Assembly (NCBI GenBank): GCA_949292205.1
Contig: CASEYR010000005.1
Span: 1-61,149 of the forward strand
Reading direction: 5' to 3'
Source of the DNA: an uncultured Alphaproteobacteria bacterium
GTDB taxonomy: Bacteria; Pseudomonadota; Alphaproteobacteria; CAAHEQ01; UBA3637
DNA length: 61,149 nucleotides
Shown piece after piece: positions 47,032-61,140 of the stretch. The notes beneath the pieces were generated by a model that saw only the letters and a program-made list of their open reading frames with translations, did no database searches and was not told the DNA's origin. The translations under genes were made by a program, and so were the position numbers. Numbering within the stretch: position 1 is the stretch's first letter; every line of letters starts with the position of its first letter.

Positions 47032-47107
47032 GAGTGCGTAGCTCAGCTGGTAGAGCACCTGACTTTTAATCAGGTGGCCCTGGGTTCGAATCCCAGCGCG
47101 CTCACCA
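47032..47107 (+). tRNA. tRNA-Lys (anticodon TTT)
   Basis: 76 nt with encoded CCA. Acceptor GAGTGCG/CGCGCTC (one G-U pair), D-arm GCTC/GAGC, anticodon arm CCTGA-CTTTTAA-TCAGG and a T-arm with GGTTCGAATCCC. The mobile island starts about 80 nt after its 3' end, so it is the likely integration landmark. Confidence 0.97.
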
Positions 47108-47186: not shown

Positions 47187-47235
47187 ATTTTGTCCCGCTC
47201 CTGTCCCGCTTTTTTGAGTGATGATACGGGCTTTT
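47187..47235 (+). repeat. Left direct repeat of the island
   Basis: The first 28 bases (47187-47214) are identical to 61092-61119, and the next 21 match at 15 positions by my alignment (11 of 17, then four T). The core contains TGTCCCGCT twice, 11 bp apart, which could be integrase arm-binding sites. At the right copy the same sequence, read on the minus strand, carries the int RBS and the first two bases of its start codon. Confidence 0.8.
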
Positions 47236-47483: not shown

Positions 47484-48356
47484 ATGATAACCAAAGAGAA
47501 AAAAGAAAAAATATTAGAACAATGTGAACGAAGGTGCCAAACCAGGCTGACGCAAAAGGCTTTTAGAAATATATTGGGATATATGGCCGATGATTTTCTA
47601 ACCCTGATCTGTTTTATGGTTGCTTATCGGAAATATCCGTATCATTTGGCCTACATGCGTTTTATCTTTGCTTTGCAATTTTTTGATTCTGCCATCTGTA
47701 AAAATAAAGCCCGACTGATAGAAGAATACTTTTTTGATCATATTGAAACGGAAGACGAGTTTTGGGACCGTCATTTACGTCACCGCTACCAAGCCCTCAA
47801 AGAGCCTTGGGATAAAGATAATACGGATCGTTATATTCGGGATAAAGAGGTTCCTCTTTACCTGTCAGAAGATATTTGTAAAAACGTTATGTTGTTTTTA
47901 AAACTGTTTATAACGGCGGTCAAATACCCGGACCGGTTTCTTTGGACGGATACCGATTTATGGCACTATGCGTGCGAGTATCTGCTTATGGATGATCGGG
48001 AAATGAGATGGTGGATTTTCGGCCCGAACGGACATAATTTATTGAATTTAATTGATGGGAAAAAGGATGATATCCACATCATTTCTACCGAACAATTTAA
48101 GAGTATTGATGGATATCAAAAATTATTTAATCACTTTCACGTGATTGCCCCACGTGTACAGATGCCAATCCATTTCCACGCGCCCGCCGGCGGTGAACTT
48201 AACCGTCAACGTGCCGTCCTTATTTTTGGTCATCGTTTGGGTCGGGTGGAAAAGATAATGCGATGCTTCCTCGGCCGTCTCGGCATCAAACAACCATTCT
48301 ACTTCGGCCGGCTCTTCCTGAAACACACCGAAAGATTTTTCGGCATATTTTTTTAG
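47484..48356 (+). CDS. Hypothetical protein, left-most island gene
   Basis: 290 aa, family unknown to me. The first 210 residues look helical and rich in aromatic and charged residues (LTLICFMVAYRKYPYHLAYM, CEYLLMDDREMRWWIFGPNG). The last 75 or so residues lie antisense to the C-terminal WYL-protein codons and have a different, His/Arg-rich composition (MPIHFHAPAG). I think the original end was near 48122 and that a deletion or rearrangement removed the stop. RBS: AAAGGG, 9-10 nt before ATG. Operator copy 1 lies upstream. The 230 bases before it hold only regulatory sequence. Confidence 0.55.
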   Translation: MITKEKKEKILEQCERRCQTRLTQKAFRNILGYMADDFLTLICFMVAYRKYPYHLAYMRFIFALQFFDSAICKNKARLIEEYFFDHIETEDEFWDRHLRHRYQALKEPWDKDNTDRYIRDKEVPLYLSEDICKNVMLFLKLFITAVKYPDRFLWTDTDLWHYACEYLLMDDREMRWWIFGPNGHNLLNLIDGKKDDIHIISTEQFKSIDGYQKLFNHFHVIAPRVQMPIHFHAPAGGELNRQRAVLIFGHRLGRVEKIMRCFLGRLGIKQPFYFGRLFLKHTERFFGIFF

Positions 48357-49058
48357 GGAGAAATCCTTCGGAAACACGAATGTATCCGGCAAAATATCAA
48401 CGCTTCGAATATTCGTTAAAATAAAATTATGAGCGGCATCCCCGAAATACCCGTCCGAATGATGTGCCACCAAATAATGATTCCTGTCCCCATATAAAAA
48501 ACCATAGGGATCAACAACATTCACACCGGTCTTTTTACTGTTTTTATTGAAATAGCGTATTTTAACTTGATGGCAACTTAAAATCGCCTCCCGAAGAGGC
48601 CGAATAATGTCGGGTGCGATTTGGATTTTAGGCCCCGGACGACAGGCAATCCCCTCCGCCCGCATTAACTCTTCGGCATCCGGCTCTATCCGACGATAGG
48701 TTTCATGCTTAATAGACGCCTTTATTTTTTCAATAATCCCTTCCAATAGTGTTGCTTTGTCGGCTAAATGACTTTTAATCAAGGCCTCTTTTGCTATATG
48801 AAGACAAGACAATTCTTCGGCCGTGAATTGGATTAAGTCTTTTAATGTCCCTTGCGGAATATACCACCGTTTTTTGCGGTCGTCCGAAACGGCTTCTTCG
48901 GCTTGCGGAAAGCGGTATAAAATCAAGTCCCGCATGCGTTCGGCCGTTCGGCGGGAAACGTCAAAACGATCCATAATATCACGGATGGCAACACCGTCTC
49001 GGGATGATTGCATCCAAATCGCCAAGTCAAGCAGGTTTTCCGTTTTTTCATAAGACAT
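48123..49058 (-). CDS. WYL-domain transcriptional regulator
   Basis: 311 aa. The N-terminal winged HTH is GVAIRDIMDRFDVSRRTAER, with a middle helical linker. The WYL domain (residues about 150-235) has the expected VNVVDPYGFLYGDRNHYLVA. A C-terminal WCX-like domain ends GGRVEMDWHLY. Regulators of this type (for example BrxR and CapW) repress phage-defence operons and are thought to sense nucleic acid or nucleotides through the WYL pocket. The operator lying between its own -35 and -10 suggests autorepression. The RBS is AAGGAG. Confidence 0.88.
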   Translation of the reverse strand: MSYEKTENLLDLAIWMQSSRDGVAIRDIMDRFDVSRRTAERMRDLILYRFPQAEEAVSDDRKKRWYIPQGTLKDLIQFTAEELSCLHIAKEALIKSHLADKATLLEGIIEKIKASIKHETYRRIEPDAEELMRAEGIACRPGPKIQIAPDIIRPLREAILSCHQVKIRYFNKNSKKTGVNVVDPYGFLYGDRNHYLVAHHSDGYFGDAAHNFILTNIRSVDILPDTFVFPKDFSLKKYAEKSFGVFQEEPAEVEWLFDAETAEEASHYLFHPTQTMTKNKDGTLTVKFTAGGRVEMDWHLYTWGNHVKVIK

Positions 49059-52205: not shown

Positions 52206-52687
52206 TTTATGGCTTCCTCCCTGTCAAAGCGGATATACATGTCGCCCCAATCGTCCCAAATGTTTGTTTCAATCTCAAACAATAAAATCATTGTCGGCCA
52301 ACCTTGACCCTCAAAGCATATCTGATTCAAAGAATGATTATCCGGCCCCAAACCGACCGCTTCTTCTCCCTTTTCAACGGCATTAGAAAAGATTTTTACA
52401 ATAACGTTTTCGGGATTTCCCGTTTCCGCATCACACAGGAAATGAAGTGTCGTAATCTTTCGGTCGGTATTTTTTAAAAATTGAACAGCCTCTTGATAAA
52501 CACAAATACTTTCTTCCTCCAATGAATCCTTTTTCTCACACGATATTTTAACACATCGTTCCGTTCTATACAAAGAGCAAGCTAACATCGGTTTCATATA
52601 ACGAAAAAGACACTCACTTTCTTCACCTTTCGGGAATAACTGATGATACAATGCTTTCATCTGTACTTTGTTCAAATATTCAATCAT
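52187..52687 (-). CDS. Hypothetical protein downstream of doc
   Basis: 166 aa, soluble, family unknown. It is rich in acidic residues (ESECLFRYMKPMLACSLYRT, KKDSLEEESICVYQEAVQFL), ends in IRFDREEAIKKIIGE and contains several Cys. Its start overlaps the stop of the doc-like gene by 1 nt, so it is co-translated with it, but it does not look like a toxin or antitoxin I know. The base composition is that of the doc gene, not of the AT-rich block. Confidence 0.6.
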   Translation of the reverse strand: MIEYLNKVQMKALYHQLFPKGEESECLFRYMKPMLACSLYRTERCVKISCEKKDSLEEESICVYQEAVQFLKNTDRKITTLHFLCDAETGNPENVIVKIFSNAVEKGEEAVGLGPDNHSLNQICFEGQGWPTMILLFEIETNIWDDWGDMYIRFDREEAIKKIIGE

Positions 52688-53070
52688 TATATCTTCCTTT
52701 CAGTGTGTCGTTTTAACCAATCGGCAAAATCCCTTTGTGAAAGGGAAGAATCCGCCAAAGCCATTATAACCCGATATTTTTCCTGCCATTCGGTCCTTAT
52801 ATCCGCACCGTTCAACATTAAACAAAGCCGACAGGCAATATACGCAATCCGCTTATTCCCGTCAATAAAGGCATGATTTTTGATAAGGCCGAAGGCATAT
52901 TCACCAGCGATATCACAAATATCTGCTTGCGGTTCATAAATCCGGCGATTAGCCGCCCGACCGACAGCCGAATCCAACAAATCCTCATCCCGAATACCGA
53001 AAGGTGTTCCGAATGTTTCGGCTTGTAAACGGGCTACCCCGATTAAAGTATCTTTGGCAATCAGTTTCAT
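52687..53070 (-). CDS. doc: Doc-like toxin (Fic fold)
   Basis: A 127-aa Fic/Doc protein. The active-site loop is HAFIDGNKR, in the position of the HPFxDGNKR of P1 Doc with Ala replacing Pro, and the flanking helices are GEYAFGLIKN and IAYIACRLCLMLNG. P1 Doc phosphorylates EF-Tu; whether this one does is unknown. A 37-aa gene overlaps its start by 4 nt and is the likely antitoxin. Confidence 0.85.
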   Translation of the reverse strand: MKLIAKDTLIGVARLQAETFGTPFGIRDEDLLDSAVGRAANRRIYEPQADICDIAGEYAFGLIKNHAFIDGNKRIAYIACRLCLMLNGADIRTEWQEKYRVIMALADSSLSQRDFADWLKRHTERKI

Positions 53071-53817: not shown

Positions 53818-55089
53818 CTATTCTTTCTTGTGATTAAAGAGAGATTGTTTTTCGTCTTCATTTAATGTTTTTAACTTTTTAACCGGTTCAAGGCTTTCTA
53901 TTTTCTTAAAAATGTTTTCCCAATCCGGTTGCTCTTTTCCTTTATTTAGTTCTGTTTTATAAAGACATGTATATTTTTGACTATTATGATTTTTCACTTT
54001 CAGTTGCAAAACTTTTTCCATATTTTCTATCACCGCTTTTCTGTCTGTTTCCTCTTTTAACGGATATAGGTATAACAATAACTTTAATGATTTTTTCTGA
54101 GCGGTACAATATTCCAATGTGAAATATAAAAATTGTTGCTTCCCGTTTTGAGAGAATTCCTTATTCGCAATATTTTCGGGGTAAAAATGGCAGCGGTATA
54201 TATCTCCCTCCCGTGTCACCCAAGGTTTCGCCCAATCGGAAGAATTCTTCAAACACTTTAAAAACACATCAAAAATAACTTCATCGTTAAACATCTCTAA
54301 AATAGAGTTGTATTCCTTATCCAATTTATTGTGGGGATCTTTATTGCGAATCCATTTAATCAGAGATTCCCGATGCTTCTGGTTTGATAAAACAGCATTT
54401 TTTAGTTTGACAATTTCATCATCGGGACTTTCTCCTTCAATAATATTTTTATAATCTTGAATAACGTGTTTGATATACGGTGCCATGGAATCCCTGCGAC
54501 ATTTTAAAATCACATCCAATAAATCATTGATTTTATCATAGGTTAAATTTTCCCATCCTTTGGTATCATCTTTATCCCAAGGTGTCGGCGTCAATAAAAG
54601 ATAAGATTTTTCCGCATCTTTAAAACGTTCCCGAATATTCTGACCATTCGCCGTTGCCTCATCATTTTCTATCCAATCCCTGGTATCATCCAATTGATTG
54701 TTATTTTCCCCGCATTGACGCTTATTCTCTATAAGAATAACATAATTTTTATTCCGGACCTGATACTCAATCATAATATCAATAAGATGTTTTTTCTTTG
54801 CTTTCTTATTTTCAATAGAAAACTCACGCTCAACCGTTGGTTCTGATAAATTCCCTAAATGAATTTCTTTAAATCTATCCTCTTCAACAATTTCTTCTAA
54901 AAACAACTTTAAAAAGATATCTCCGAGGCCATGACTTTCTTTCGGATCTAACAACCATGCCAAAAAATTGGAATGGCGAATTTCGTAATTTTCCAAAGAT
55001 AATACTTTAAAAATGTTAAACTTGTTTATATACGCATTTAGTTTTCTGAATTCGGCAGATGTGATAAGAGCTTTTAATCCGGTGTCCAT
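53818..55089 (-). CDS. PD-(D/E)XK nuclease superfamily protein
   Basis: 423 aa. Near the N-terminus is ENYEIRHSNFLAWLLDPKES, followed by HGLGD. The nuclease core follows as KKHLIDIMIEYQVRNKNYVI with LIENK: the Asp of LIDIMI and the Glu-Lys of IENK give the D-x(n)-E-x-K pattern. The layout fits the PDDEXK_4 family, seen in phage-defence neighbourhoods (from memory). About 240 residues of unassigned C-terminal sequence could be a sensor or target domain. RBS: AAGGAG. Operator copy 3 lies 50-70 nt upstream. Confidence 0.75.
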   Translation of the reverse strand: MDTGLKALITSAEFRKLNAYINKFNIFKVLSLENYEIRHSNFLAWLLDPKESHGLGDIFLKLFLEEIVEEDRFKEIHLGNLSEPTVEREFSIENKKAKKKHLIDIMIEYQVRNKNYVILIENKRQCGENNNQLDDTRDWIENDEATANGQNIRERFKDAEKSYLLLTPTPWDKDDTKGWENLTYDKINDLLDVILKCRRDSMAPYIKHVIQDYKNIIEGESPDDEIVKLKNAVLSNQKHRESLIKWIRNKDPHNKLDKEYNSILEMFNDEVIFDVFLKCLKNSSDWAKPWVTREGDIYRCHFYPENIANKEFSQNGKQQFLYFTLEYCTAQKKSLKLLLYLYPLKEETDRKAVIENMEKVLQLKVKNHNSQKYTCLYKTELNKGKEQPDWENIFKKIESLEPVKKLKTLNEDEKQSLFNHKKE

Positions 55090-55137: not shown

Positions 55138-55160
55138 CATATGTCAAAAAATGACGCATC
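55138..55160. promoter_or_regulatory. Operator copy 3, between the nuclease-like gene and the structured RNA
   Basis: CATATGTCA-AAAAA-TGACGCATC on the plus strand. It lies 49 nt upstream of the PD-(D/E)XK start and 10 nt before the TATAAT of the structured region, so one bound dimer could control both. Confidence 0.6.
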
Positions 55161-55169
55161 ATAACTCTA

Positions 55170-55415
55170 TATAATGAAAACAGTCGCCGAAGCACACGGC
55201 GACTGGGAGTTTACAACTGCCTTAGACAAAAACAGCACAATGCTTTTAGCATTTTCTGCCTGGACATCACATCGTCTCCCAGTCATAGGCACTGGGAGAA
55301 GTCCTTTTTGTTGACGGTCTGCCTTCTCTAATCACAGACCGTGTCTAAGTTCAGGCTTGTAAAGACCCGTTCGCCTAATTGCTCAGGCTGATATCATGAT
55401 ACTATATTTTGTATC
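55170..55415 (+). ncRNA. Candidate structured non-coding RNA (with -10 box at 55170-55175)
   Basis: No gene lies in 55090-55579, but 55181-55349 is packed with stems. P1 is CAGTCGCCG/CGGCGACTG (55181-55189/55197-55205). P2 is CTTAGAC/GTCTAAG (55221-55227/55343-55349) and encloses P3 AATGCT/AGCATT (55239-55253), P4 GGAC/GTCC with P5 CTCCCAGT/ACTGGGAG (55276-55283/55291-55298), and P6 ACGGTCTG/CAGACCGT (55314-55321/55335-55342). A TATAAT at 55170-55175 predicts a start at about 55182, at the base of P1. A weak GATAC/GTATC hairpin (55398-55415) may mark the 3' end. Strand and ends are inferred. Confidence 0.55.
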
Positions 55416-55579
55416 CGAATGTAAAGAATTTTTATTTTATTCCCTTTCATTATAAATTAAATAAAATATAATGAGTCATTATTTTTCAATGGATTGAAAG
55501 AAGAAAAACGTTGAGTTTTGTTTTTACTGATTATAAAATATAAAAATAAGATGATTTTATAATGAAAGAAGGGCAAAAA

Positions 55580-58845: not shown

Positions 58846-59901
58846 TTATCCCTCTTTTTTCTTCTCGGTCTCCTGCTGTTTTAGACTGTATCGAAGTTTT
58901 TGTATTCCCCGCATTGAACAAAAGTCTCGATATCGGGCAGCCGTGTTTTTTCTGATTGTTTCAAAAAAATCCTTACTTTTTCTCTGCGGTAATCGCTTTA
59001 CAAAATCTTCTAAAGTAAAACGAACAGGAGAGTAAATTTTAAAAGATTGATAGAAAAAATAAGGAATTAAATAAAGGGATTTCAAATTAAGTATGACACT
59101 CCTGCTCAGTTCTTCCTTTGAATAGGCTGATTTTCCCGGTAATTCCGATTTAGCTTTTTCAATAATTTTTCTTACGGATACCAAAATATCTTCTGTAGTT
59201 TTAAACGGGTCAATGGCAACATAAAGGCTGCCGCAATCGTTTATCGGAGCATCATTAAACAGCCCGATAAAACTGTTCGCAGGTAAAAAATCCCCGCCGA
59301 AATTATATTGAGGTTCGATTTTACGAGCAGCCGGTACATCCGATAAATAATACATAAGGATTTTACGAAGCTTTTCTTTCAATGTGTCTGCAGAAATAAT
59401 TAAGGGGGATTGACGCAGTTTTGCCATTTTATCAAGGATACTTTGTAAATCTTCGGATAATTGCATATCATTATCTATATCAATTTCCGGAATCAGTGCG
59501 CAGTACCATAACAGAGCTAAACGTTCCTCCGCATCTATTAACGCTGCTTGTTCAAAATTATCCGACAAAGACAACTGCTTGGATGAAGTACGGATAAAAT
59601 ATTGATTCAACGATACTCTGTATAACAACTGTAATTTAAAACTTTTCTCTGACCACCGCTTTATAACGGTATCTTTTATCGGTTGAAAATCATTTAGTAT
59701 TTGTGTACATATTTTCTCCAGTTCACTATCGGAAAAACCCGGCAGGGACTTTTTAGGTATATTATCTGTTACCGCAATATTTTCATCCGTTATTCTTCGC
59801 GGCTTTGGTGTATTGCGTTGTATTTCGTTAATTTTTTTAAAACTCTCCATAAAAAAATCACCCCATTCCTTGGTACATACTTCAATTTCATTATTTTCCA
59901 T
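58846..59901 (-). CDS. Hypothetical protein coupled to the integrase
   Basis: 351 aa. It is soluble, mostly helical (LLYRVSLNQYFIRTSSKQLS, EERLALLWYCALIPEI), with a basic tail. The start overlaps the integrase stop by 11 nt. Its size and adjacency to a satellite integrase resemble the DUF6387-type accessory proteins, but I am not sure of the family. The 106 bases between its stop and the AlpA-like gene hold no gene and probably a promoter. Confidence 0.6.
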   Translation of the reverse strand: MENNEIEVCTKEWGDFFMESFKKINEIQRNTPKPRRITDENIAVTDNIPKKSLPGFSDSELEKICTQILNDFQPIKDTVIKRWSEKSFKLQLLYRVSLNQYFIRTSSKQLSLSDNFEQAALIDAEERLALLWYCALIPEIDIDNDMQLSEDLQSILDKMAKLRQSPLIISADTLKEKLRKILMYYLSDVPAARKIEPQYNFGGDFLPANSFIGLFNDAPINDCGSLYVAIDPFKTTEDILVSVRKIIEKAKSELPGKSAYSKEELSRSVILNLKSLYLIPYFFYQSFKIYSPVRFTLEDFVKRLPQRKSKDFFETIRKNTAARYRDFCSMRGIQKLRYSLKQQETEKKKEG

Positions 59902-61093
59902 TTGCCAGACTCCTTTCTAAGTTTTTAACTGCTTTCTTAAACGTATTTTCACCTAAATGTGCATACCGTTCCGTCATGGAAATATTGGAATGCCCCATCA
60001 ATTTTTGAACGGTATACAAATCCACACCCGTTTGTACAAGCCAACTGGCATATGTATGCCGCAGCGTATGAAAAACAACTTTCTGCCTGCGGTCCGTGAT
60101 ACCGTTATTTAAGCCCAGTTGTTGAACTACCCGATTAAAGGTATGAGATACTTTTCGGATTTCATTTCCATTTTGGGCGGGAAAAAGCAGATCGGAGGCT
60201 TTCCATTGATTTGTTCGTTTTTTCTTTTCGATAAAAAGTTGTTTCAATTCATCTGTCATAAAAGCTGTTCTGTTCTTAACACTTTTAGTGTCTTTGATAC
60301 TAACGGTTCCTTGCACCGTATCTATATCCGCCCATGTCAATTTAAAAATTTCACCGGCTCGTAATCCGCACCACAAAGAGAGCATGGCTATTTCATACAT
60401 CTGCTCCGATTTTATCCTTAACCCTTGCATTAACAGTTCCGCTTCCTGTTTGGATAAAAAACGCTCTCGCTTGTTATCGGTCTTTAATTTTGTCACTAAC
60501 TTAACCGGATTTTTCCCCGTGATGTATTCCCGCTCCAATGCATATCGGAACAGCTTCTGTAAGCTGATGATGATATGATTGATTGTCGCCGGAGATTTAT
60601 TCTGATCCGCCATTGTTTGAGCCAGTTTTTCTATATCTTCGGGAAGAATTTTCATCATGGGTCGATCTCCGACGGAAGAACGTATCCATTTATCATACGC
60701 TTTCACTTCACTGTCAAAACTGTACCGATTAATCTTGACGCCCGCAGTCCGAACGTAATATTTATCATAAAAATCATTAAGAGTAATATTTCTTTTCTGC
60801 TCTTCCTGTTGTCGTTTTTCATCCTCTGCCAGTTTTAGAGCCGCCTGATTCCGAGCCTCTTTCAAAGTCAAACATCCATGCCCTGTCTTTTTTGCTTCCT
60901 TCAGCTCACAAAGAGTTTGAAATGCTTTTATTTCCGTCCAACCTTCCGAAGCCCATCCGAGTGCTTCTTCTTTGTCTTTCCCGTTCAACTTATACCGAAT
61001 GGTAAAATACCTGTCCGGCTTCAAACCGTGTCGCCTGGTTTCATGCTCTCGGTATCGCACACCCGTGTATTTTGTTTTCAACCAACAAACCAT
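59891..61093 (-). CDS. int: Tyrosine integrase of the island
   Basis: A 400-aa phage-type integrase. The N-terminal arm-binding domain (RYFTIRYKLNGKDKEEALGW) is followed by a core-binding SAM-like domain (SPATINHIIISLQKLFRYAL) and a catalytic domain with SLWCGLRAGEIFKLTW (Arg), HTLRHTYASWLVQ (H-x-x-R), MGHSNISMTERYAHLG (His, Tyr). The start codon lies at the edge of the right direct repeat, which supplies the RBS (AGGAG, 9 nt). The arrangement means excision would change the sequence just upstream of the gene. Confidence 0.95.
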   Translation of the reverse strand: MVCWLKTKYTGVRYREHETRRHGLKPDRYFTIRYKLNGKDKEEALGWASEGWTEIKAFQTLCELKEAKKTGHGCLTLKEARNQAALKLAEDEKRQQEEQKRNITLNDFYDKYYVRTAGVKINRYSFDSEVKAYDKWIRSSVGDRPMMKILPEDIEKLAQTMADQNKSPATINHIIISLQKLFRYALEREYITGKNPVKLVTKLKTDNKRERFLSKQEAELLMQGLRIKSEQMYEIAMLSLWCGLRAGEIFKLTWADIDTVQGTVSIKDTKSVKNRTAFMTDELKQLFIEKKKRTNQWKASDLLFPAQNGNEIRKVSHTFNRVVQQLGLNNGITDRRQKVVFHTLRHTYASWLVQTGVDLYTVQKLMGHSNISMTERYAHLGENTFKKAVKNLERSLANGK

Positions 61094-61140
61094 TTTGTCC
61101 CGCTCCTGTCCCGCTTTTTCAGATGATTTTACGGGCTTTT
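61092..61140 (+). repeat. Right direct repeat of the island
   Basis: Same sequence as 47187-47235: 28 bases identical, then a diverged part ending ACGGGCTTTT. The window ends 9 bases later, so the true right junction with the chromosome is not visible. Confidence 0.8.

Follow-up and report, generated by a model that had tools for sequence, protein, structure and literature searches.

What is the strongly structured stretch at positions 55170–55415 of the window (the whole 61,149-nt sequence analyzed here, from a contig of an uncultured alphaproteobacterium), on which strand is it read, and does it serve either of its neighbors, a nuclease-like gene and a gene for a short recombinase? The original prediction described it as a candidate new structured RNA, transcribed from the plus strand. 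All stems named there are present in the sequence: P1 (CAGTCGCC/GGCGACTG), P2 (CTTAGAC/GTCTAAG), the hairpin CTCCCAG/CTGGGAG with its loop CATAGGC, and a further stem, ACGGTCTG/CAGACCGT. The folding energy of the 246-nt stretch is −83.4 kcal/mol for the plus strand and −92.4 kcal/mol for the minus strand (z = −6.4 and −6.3, respectively), and none of 200 shuffled sequences folded as well. With stems far beyond chance and strong covariation across homologues, this is a genuine structured RNA. Its identity as a tRNA or tmRNA was rejected, and the earlier verdict that it is not a retron, omega-RNA or tracrRNA is supported.

The strand, however, is the opposite one. A covariance model built from eight sequences with the window excluded (R1) matches the minus strand at 55201–55370 with 89.8 bits, and a second model built from 72 members (R2) gives 102.3 bits, whereas no family member is matched on the plus strand with more than 14 bits by R1 or 27 bits by R2. 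Furthermore, when the family is read as minus-strand RNA, G·U pairs outnumber A·C mismatches 292 to 51, a ratio that is perhaps somewhat inflated by the fitting of the alignment to the structure. An excess of G·U pairs on this scale points to selection on one strand, as RNA. The minus-strand scores and the G·U asymmetry turn the P1 stem of the original prediction into a terminator and leave the proposed plus-strand promoter unsupported: its TATAAT (55168–55173) sits in the A+T-rich tail behind the minus-strand terminator. With homologues placed side by side, the opposite-strand end of the element consists of a hairpin with a U-run or a ribosome-binding site, followed by a start codon. The element, proposed earlier to stand apart from its neighbor genes, is the 5′ leader of the minus-strand nuclease gene. 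Its identity as a minus-strand leader RNA, that is, its family, strand and cis position, is well supported (Table 1).

Table 1. Features of the minus-strand leader RNA, in the order in which they follow one another in the RNA, and of its surroundings in the window.
Feature	Position	Strand	Remarks
Candidate promoter	55396–55425	−	−35 TTTACA (55420–55425), 18 nt, −10 TATCAT (55396–55401); sequence
Whole leader RNA	55172–55389	−	About 217 nt, predicted start to terminator end; covariance-model matches, promoter and terminator from sequence
P0 hairpin	55373–55388	−	Predicted 5′ end; sequence, same place in many homologues
H1 hairpin CGGGT/GCCTG	55352–55369	−	Loop carries PK1 5′ strand TTTACAA (55357–55363)
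P3 5′ strand CTTAGAC	55343–55349	−	Partner GTCTAAG (55221–55227); P2 of the original prediction
P3a hairpin	55314–55342	−	86–92% of cells paired
P4 5′ strand TCTCCCAGT	55291–55299	−	92% of cells paired with mid strand
Mid strand GACTGGGAG	55276–55284	−	Partner is P4 5′ strand or X 3′ strand, never both
P5 ACGATG/CATTGT, internal loop and P6	55237–55275	−	P5: 99% of cells paired
Conserved internal loop TGATGTCCA/TAAAAG	55261–55269/55243–55248	−	
P6 hairpin	55248–55260	−	
H7 hairpin CTG/CAG	55217–55235	−	Loop carries P3 3′ strand
PK1 3′ strand TTGTAAA	55210–55216	−	Partner 55357–55363
Helix X 3′ strand CTCCCAGTC	55201–55209	−	Covariation
Intrinsic terminator CAGTCGCCGTG/TTCGGCGACTG and U-run	55172–55205	−	Sequence and scan; shares 5 nt with helix X
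Palindrome GTCA-N5-TGAC	55143–55155		Probable operator of downstream gene
PD-(D/E)XK nuclease family gene (PDDEXK_4)	53818–55089	−	Downstream gene; Pfam PF14281, E = 1e-25
Fic/Doc family protein	52687–53070	−	Same island
WYL-domain regulator gene	48123–49058	−	
tRNA-Lys	47032–47107		Adjoins island
28-bp direct repeats ATTTTGTCCCGCTCCTGTCCCGCTTTTT	47187–47214 and 61092–61119		Likely att sites
Short Phage_integrase-family protein, 204 aa	55562–56176	+	Divergent from the RNA
Integrase gene	59891–61093	−	Far end of island

The RNA contains two pseudoknots. In PK1, the H1 loop is base-paired to the strand immediately preceding the 3′ strand of helix X; in P3, the H7 loop is base-paired to the strand that directly follows H1. 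Across 71 distinct sequences, 94.7% of cells are paired, two-sided changes occur in 43 of 46 pairs, and double changes fill 767 cells compared to 200 in shuffles; in slid controls, 31–45% of cells are paired. A second, mostly new sequence set gave nearly the same picture (95.2% paired, 41 of 46 pairs, 671 versus 200 double-change cells). Pairing is high in PK1 (95% of cells, double changes in 7 of 7 pairs), P3 (97–98%, all pairs), H1 (89–92%, 4 of 4 pairs), H7 (96–98%) and helix X (97%, 6 of 7 core pairs). Plain MAFFT misplaced the pseudoknot strands, and covariance-model alignments were used instead. These models include PK1, P3, P3a, P4, P5 and P6 but not X, H1 and H7, so the agreement of the latter three was not built in.

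The mid strand has two partners, and both of its pairings covary. When P4 is swapped in for X, 94.0% of cells are paired, with two-sided changes in 42 of 44 pairs and 734 double-change cells. Helix X is almost entirely Watson–Crick and P4 is G·U-rich. One Bartonella copy carries concerted changes in all three of the competing strands (TCCCGG, CCGGGAG and CTCCCGG). The internal loop between P5 and P6 comes in two versions, which a crude motif rule assigns as TATGTCCA/YTAAAAG-like in 82 of 160 members and AATA/AATA-like in 63 of 160; within its class the loop is nearly invariant. Two features expected of a riboswitch are thus found, a gene's 5′ leader with a conserved, receptor-like fold and, from covariation and overlap, mutually exclusive structures tied to a terminator or ribosome-binding site.

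The position of the element relative to genes is equally consistent. In a set of 160 distinct members from Proteobacteria, with genes called by a simple ORF rule that leaves a few uncertain, the downstream gene is co-oriented with the RNA by 138 to 14 at a median gap of 45 nt, compared to 87 to 61 for the upstream neighbor. Terminators were found in 104 of the 160 members, compared to 24–41 in shuffles and 43 of 142 in a control region. Of these 104, 95 start within the X 3′ strand. At the other end, −10-like boxes lie 31–40 nt upstream of 37 members (about 14 in shuffles), and in the window the candidate promoter ends just ahead of P0. About one third of the members lack a recognizable terminator, and translational control must be assumed for them; in such members, for example those nearest to sRNA-Xcc1, a ribosome-binding site lies 20–50 nt downstream. 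Complements of six or more nucleotides to the H7 loop and PK1 strands are moderately enriched downstream (20 versus 9.7 and 37 versus 14.3 in permutations, respectively), which hints at translational control.

We consider it quite probable that the element acts in cis, as the leader RNA of the PDDEXK_4 gene on the minus strand, and functions as a riboswitch-like transcription attenuator, and we propose the following model. RNA polymerase would start near 55389 and synthesize the pseudoknotted receptor domain. In the OFF state, GACTGGGAG would pair with P4, and CTCCCAGTC would be free to complete the terminator. In the ON state, GACTGGGAG would pair with CTCCCAGTC to form helix X, which would remove the base of the terminator and allow read-through into the nuclease gene. 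The balance would be set by a presumed cellular signal that binds or stabilizes the pseudoknotted core. Where a terminator is lacking, these 3′ strands probably gate the ribosome-binding site instead. For the window RNA, folding with P4 and the terminator forced gave −85.1 kcal/mol and with X forced −72.8 kcal/mol, pseudoknots not being counted. As pseudoknot-free folding favors the OFF state, either the pseudoknots or a ligand must be required for the ON state. The simplest mechanism would be a terminator/antiterminator switch in which the pseudoknots and the signal together offset the cost of the ON state.

The nature of the signal is the point at which this model meets its strongest competitor. 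A protein, a translating ribosome or temperature, instead of a small ligand, might control the leader in cis; the downstream genes are very diverse and offer no single metabolic clue, and a 2021 review lists a thermometer as well as a riboswitch as possibilities for the Bartonella relatives described below (PMC8070961). According to the same review, however, trp transcription is unaffected by temperature or pH. No conserved short leader ORF was noticed in an unsystematic look, and a nearly invariant internal loop combined with a double pseudoknot is typical of receptor domains. We thus regard control of this kind as a serious but rather unlikely alternative to the ligand-responsive attenuator.

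The family extends far beyond the window. A DNA search of 142 related genomes found true homologues in three other alphaproteobacterial genomes, with several copies in two of them; the short DNA matches L005–L012 were set aside as probable chance. A three-block pattern run on GTDB contigs retrieved more members, all alphaproteobacterial, including one from Bartonella sp. DB5-6. R1 detected the RNA in 30 of 385 genomes across the class, and R2 in 38 of 43 genomes of the window's order and in 52 of 398 across the phylum; some genomes hold more than 20 copies, the maximum being 26. The window's own genome holds further copies at C3:75497–75629 (minus strand, L200) and C6:53673–53898 (plus strand, L201), along with weak RF02221 matches at C14:9911, C14:9584, C6:30176 and C4:5806. 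No phage or plasmid record matched the element by BLAST, and no viral contig matched the strict three-block pattern; a looser version of the pattern selected seven viral contigs, four with clear R2 matches. The RNA is present on viral contigs L122, L123, L127 and L128, where, as at L148, L151, L154 and L156, it precedes phage Rha/BRO antirepressor-type genes.

A PDDEXK_4 gene follows the RNA in the window and at three other loci (L002, L088 and L089), and other members precede very diverse genes. Their products include HNH and SNase nucleases, a DNA methylase, XRE-type regulators, Rha/BRO phage regulators and outer-membrane barrels, as well as prepilin-like proteins and lipoproteins, the last two assigned by sequence pattern only. 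In the sheep-colon genome RGIG5556, several copies (L004, L014, L023, L067 and L069) stand ahead of prepilin-like genes whose ends are variable and lectin-like; these genes apparently form a paralogous family of surface proteins that share one type of leader.

Two known RNAs belong to the same family. R1, trained on neither, finds both the window (89.8 bits) and Bartonella copies (59.8 and 43.6 bits), and the latter sit upstream of HTH regulator genes. By blastn, five Bartonella plasmids carry the element ahead of HTH genes. B. grahamii as4aup has one of these plasmids, and its single copy agrees with the description of the Brt RNAs (PMC5387305), which supports the identification of the Bartonella matches as Brt. 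Brt and the window RNA share the covariance model, the core, the pseudoknot strands, the three-way switching strands, a length class of about 200 nt and a position directly upstream of a co-oriented gene. They differ in that gene: Brt precedes HTH (Trp) regulator genes, in a tandem arrangement, whereas the window RNA precedes the PDDEXK_4 gene. Brt RNAs were called Bartonella-specific and proposed to act as a riboswitch for the downstream gene (Tu et al. 2016, PMC5387305). Experiments on this relative favor attenuation: Brt1 is an abundant RNA of about 200 nt with little read-through (PMC5387305), and deletion of the brt1 3′ stem-loop raises trp1 transcription (PMC8070961). A reporter placed behind brt1 becomes brighter as heme falls (PMC8070961). 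Judged from sequence, the window RNA has a terminator and a competing helix, which may act as a 3′ attenuator as in Brt.

The second known RNA is sRNA-Xcc1 (RF02221). Its 87-nt model comprises helix X, P5, P6, H7 and the PK1 3′ strand, and helices X, P5, P6 and H7 have the same order and strand in the RF02221 consensus and in the R2 alignment; the 5′ half is missing, and the family is described as a trans-acting sRNA. RF02221 matches the 3′ half of more distant family members, and in one sample of 398 genomes its matches coincide on the same strand with full-length R2 matches at 25 loci. The eight best RF02221 matches, most of which R2 misses, are followed by a ribosome-binding site and an ATG; the 140 nt preceding them contain 7-nt stretches complementary to the PK1 or the P3 strand, in most cases to both. 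In the Xanthomonas integron cassette with the widest spread, sRNA-Xcc1 itself precedes symE. At the RF02221-type loci L220, L221, L224, L226 and L227, the P3 5′ strand is repeated next to the ribosome-binding site (in L220, for example, as CTCACAG ahead of GAG), which would offer the H7 loop an alternative partner.

The window RNA departs from RF02221-type members in its internal loop (TGATGTCCA/TAAAAG compared to AATA/AATA). It has no match to RF02221 at E up to 5, below the gathering threshold of 53 bits, and a search of the element against Rfam returned no match even at a permissive threshold. The claim of complete newness is not supported: the window RNA is a divergent full-length member of a family so far known only in pieces. 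New are the full-length switching architecture, the unification of Brt with sRNA-Xcc1, for which we found no precedent in the part of the literature covered, and the cis role.

Both relatives bear on the possibility that the element is a trans-acting small RNA with a terminator of its own that merely happens to lie upstream of genes. sRNA-Xcc1 is a discrete RNA of 88 nt (PMC2996969), Brt RNAs of about 200 nt are likewise discrete, terminators occur in two thirds of the members, and Brt1 knockdown changes badA (PMC5387305). Against this, the next gene is co-oriented in 138 of 152 cases, at a median distance of 45 nt, the terminator and the switching strand overlap, and the would-be seed loops are variable yet always matched by internal partners. 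A purely trans-acting RNA is therefore unlikely; considering that sRNA-Xcc1 and Brt1 were both described as trans-acting sRNAs, a dual role is possible.

The leader and its gene are part of an island of about 13.9 kb bracketed by the 28-bp direct repeats, which are likely att sites. A gene for a WYL-domain regulator, present in the island, accompanies the RNA in five other loci (L022, L017/L026, L064, L092 and L089). The palindrome GTCA-N5-TGAC occurs at +45 to +56 nt in five loci including the window, compared to 0.09 expected, and is probably the WYL operator. It was noted before as an operator copy overlapping a −35 area; the palindrome is real, but its place is between the terminator and the nuclease gene. 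The nuclease gene would hence have a leader attenuator with a WYL-type operator behind it, and a second promoter regulated at this palindrome could let much of the nuclease expression proceed independently of the leader.

The recombinase encoded alongside is no constant partner of the RNA: among all collected loci, a homologue (66% identical) lies beside the RNA in L089, and L150 has a weak partial match. This, the one-strand selection seen in the 292:51 ratio and the terminator and ribosome-binding-site context make it highly improbable that the element is a folded DNA site, attC-like or inverton-like, for this tyrosine recombinase, despite the proximity of the two and the presence of sRNA-Xcc1 in integron cassettes. 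It is just as improbable that the RNA is the antitoxin of a type III toxin–antitoxin-like pair with the nuclease as the toxin, for although the gene order (RNA, terminator, nuclease-like gene) and the abundance of Brt-like RNAs would fit, the element has no tandem repeats, its partner is PDDEXK_4 and not a ToxN/AbiQ-type protein, and other partners include prepilin-like proteins, lipoproteins, outer-membrane barrels, regulators and phage antirepressors.

Second-messenger riboswitches of the c-di-GMP-I type occur in many copies per genome, control a diverse regulon (pilins, surface proteins, regulators and phage genes) and combine a pseudoknotted or tertiary receptor with an attenuator platform. 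The window family may work in a similar manner, by analogy, although the two have no sequence or Rfam match. We tentatively suggest, at somewhat less than even confidence, that the family forms an orphan class of riboswitches spread across the phylum, built on a double-pseudoknot receptor in two internal-loop versions, possibly for two signals, which controls nucleases, pilins, lipoproteins, outer-membrane proteins, XRE regulators and phage antirepressors, and of which Brt and sRNA-Xcc1 are partial or genus-level views.

Read from the other strand, the element is more interesting than first stated. It represents a family that is common in its order, being found in 38 of 43 genomes with up to 26 copies each, and of which the current Rfam model covers half the RNA and misses the window's branch. 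Brt1, associated with Bartonella biofilms, and sRNA-Xcc1, associated with Xanthomonas integrons, each studied on its own in pathogens, are joined in one family with a testable structure, and both would be reinterpreted as cis attenuators. The family thereby offers a clear search for the missing signal behind surface, phage and defense-like genes.
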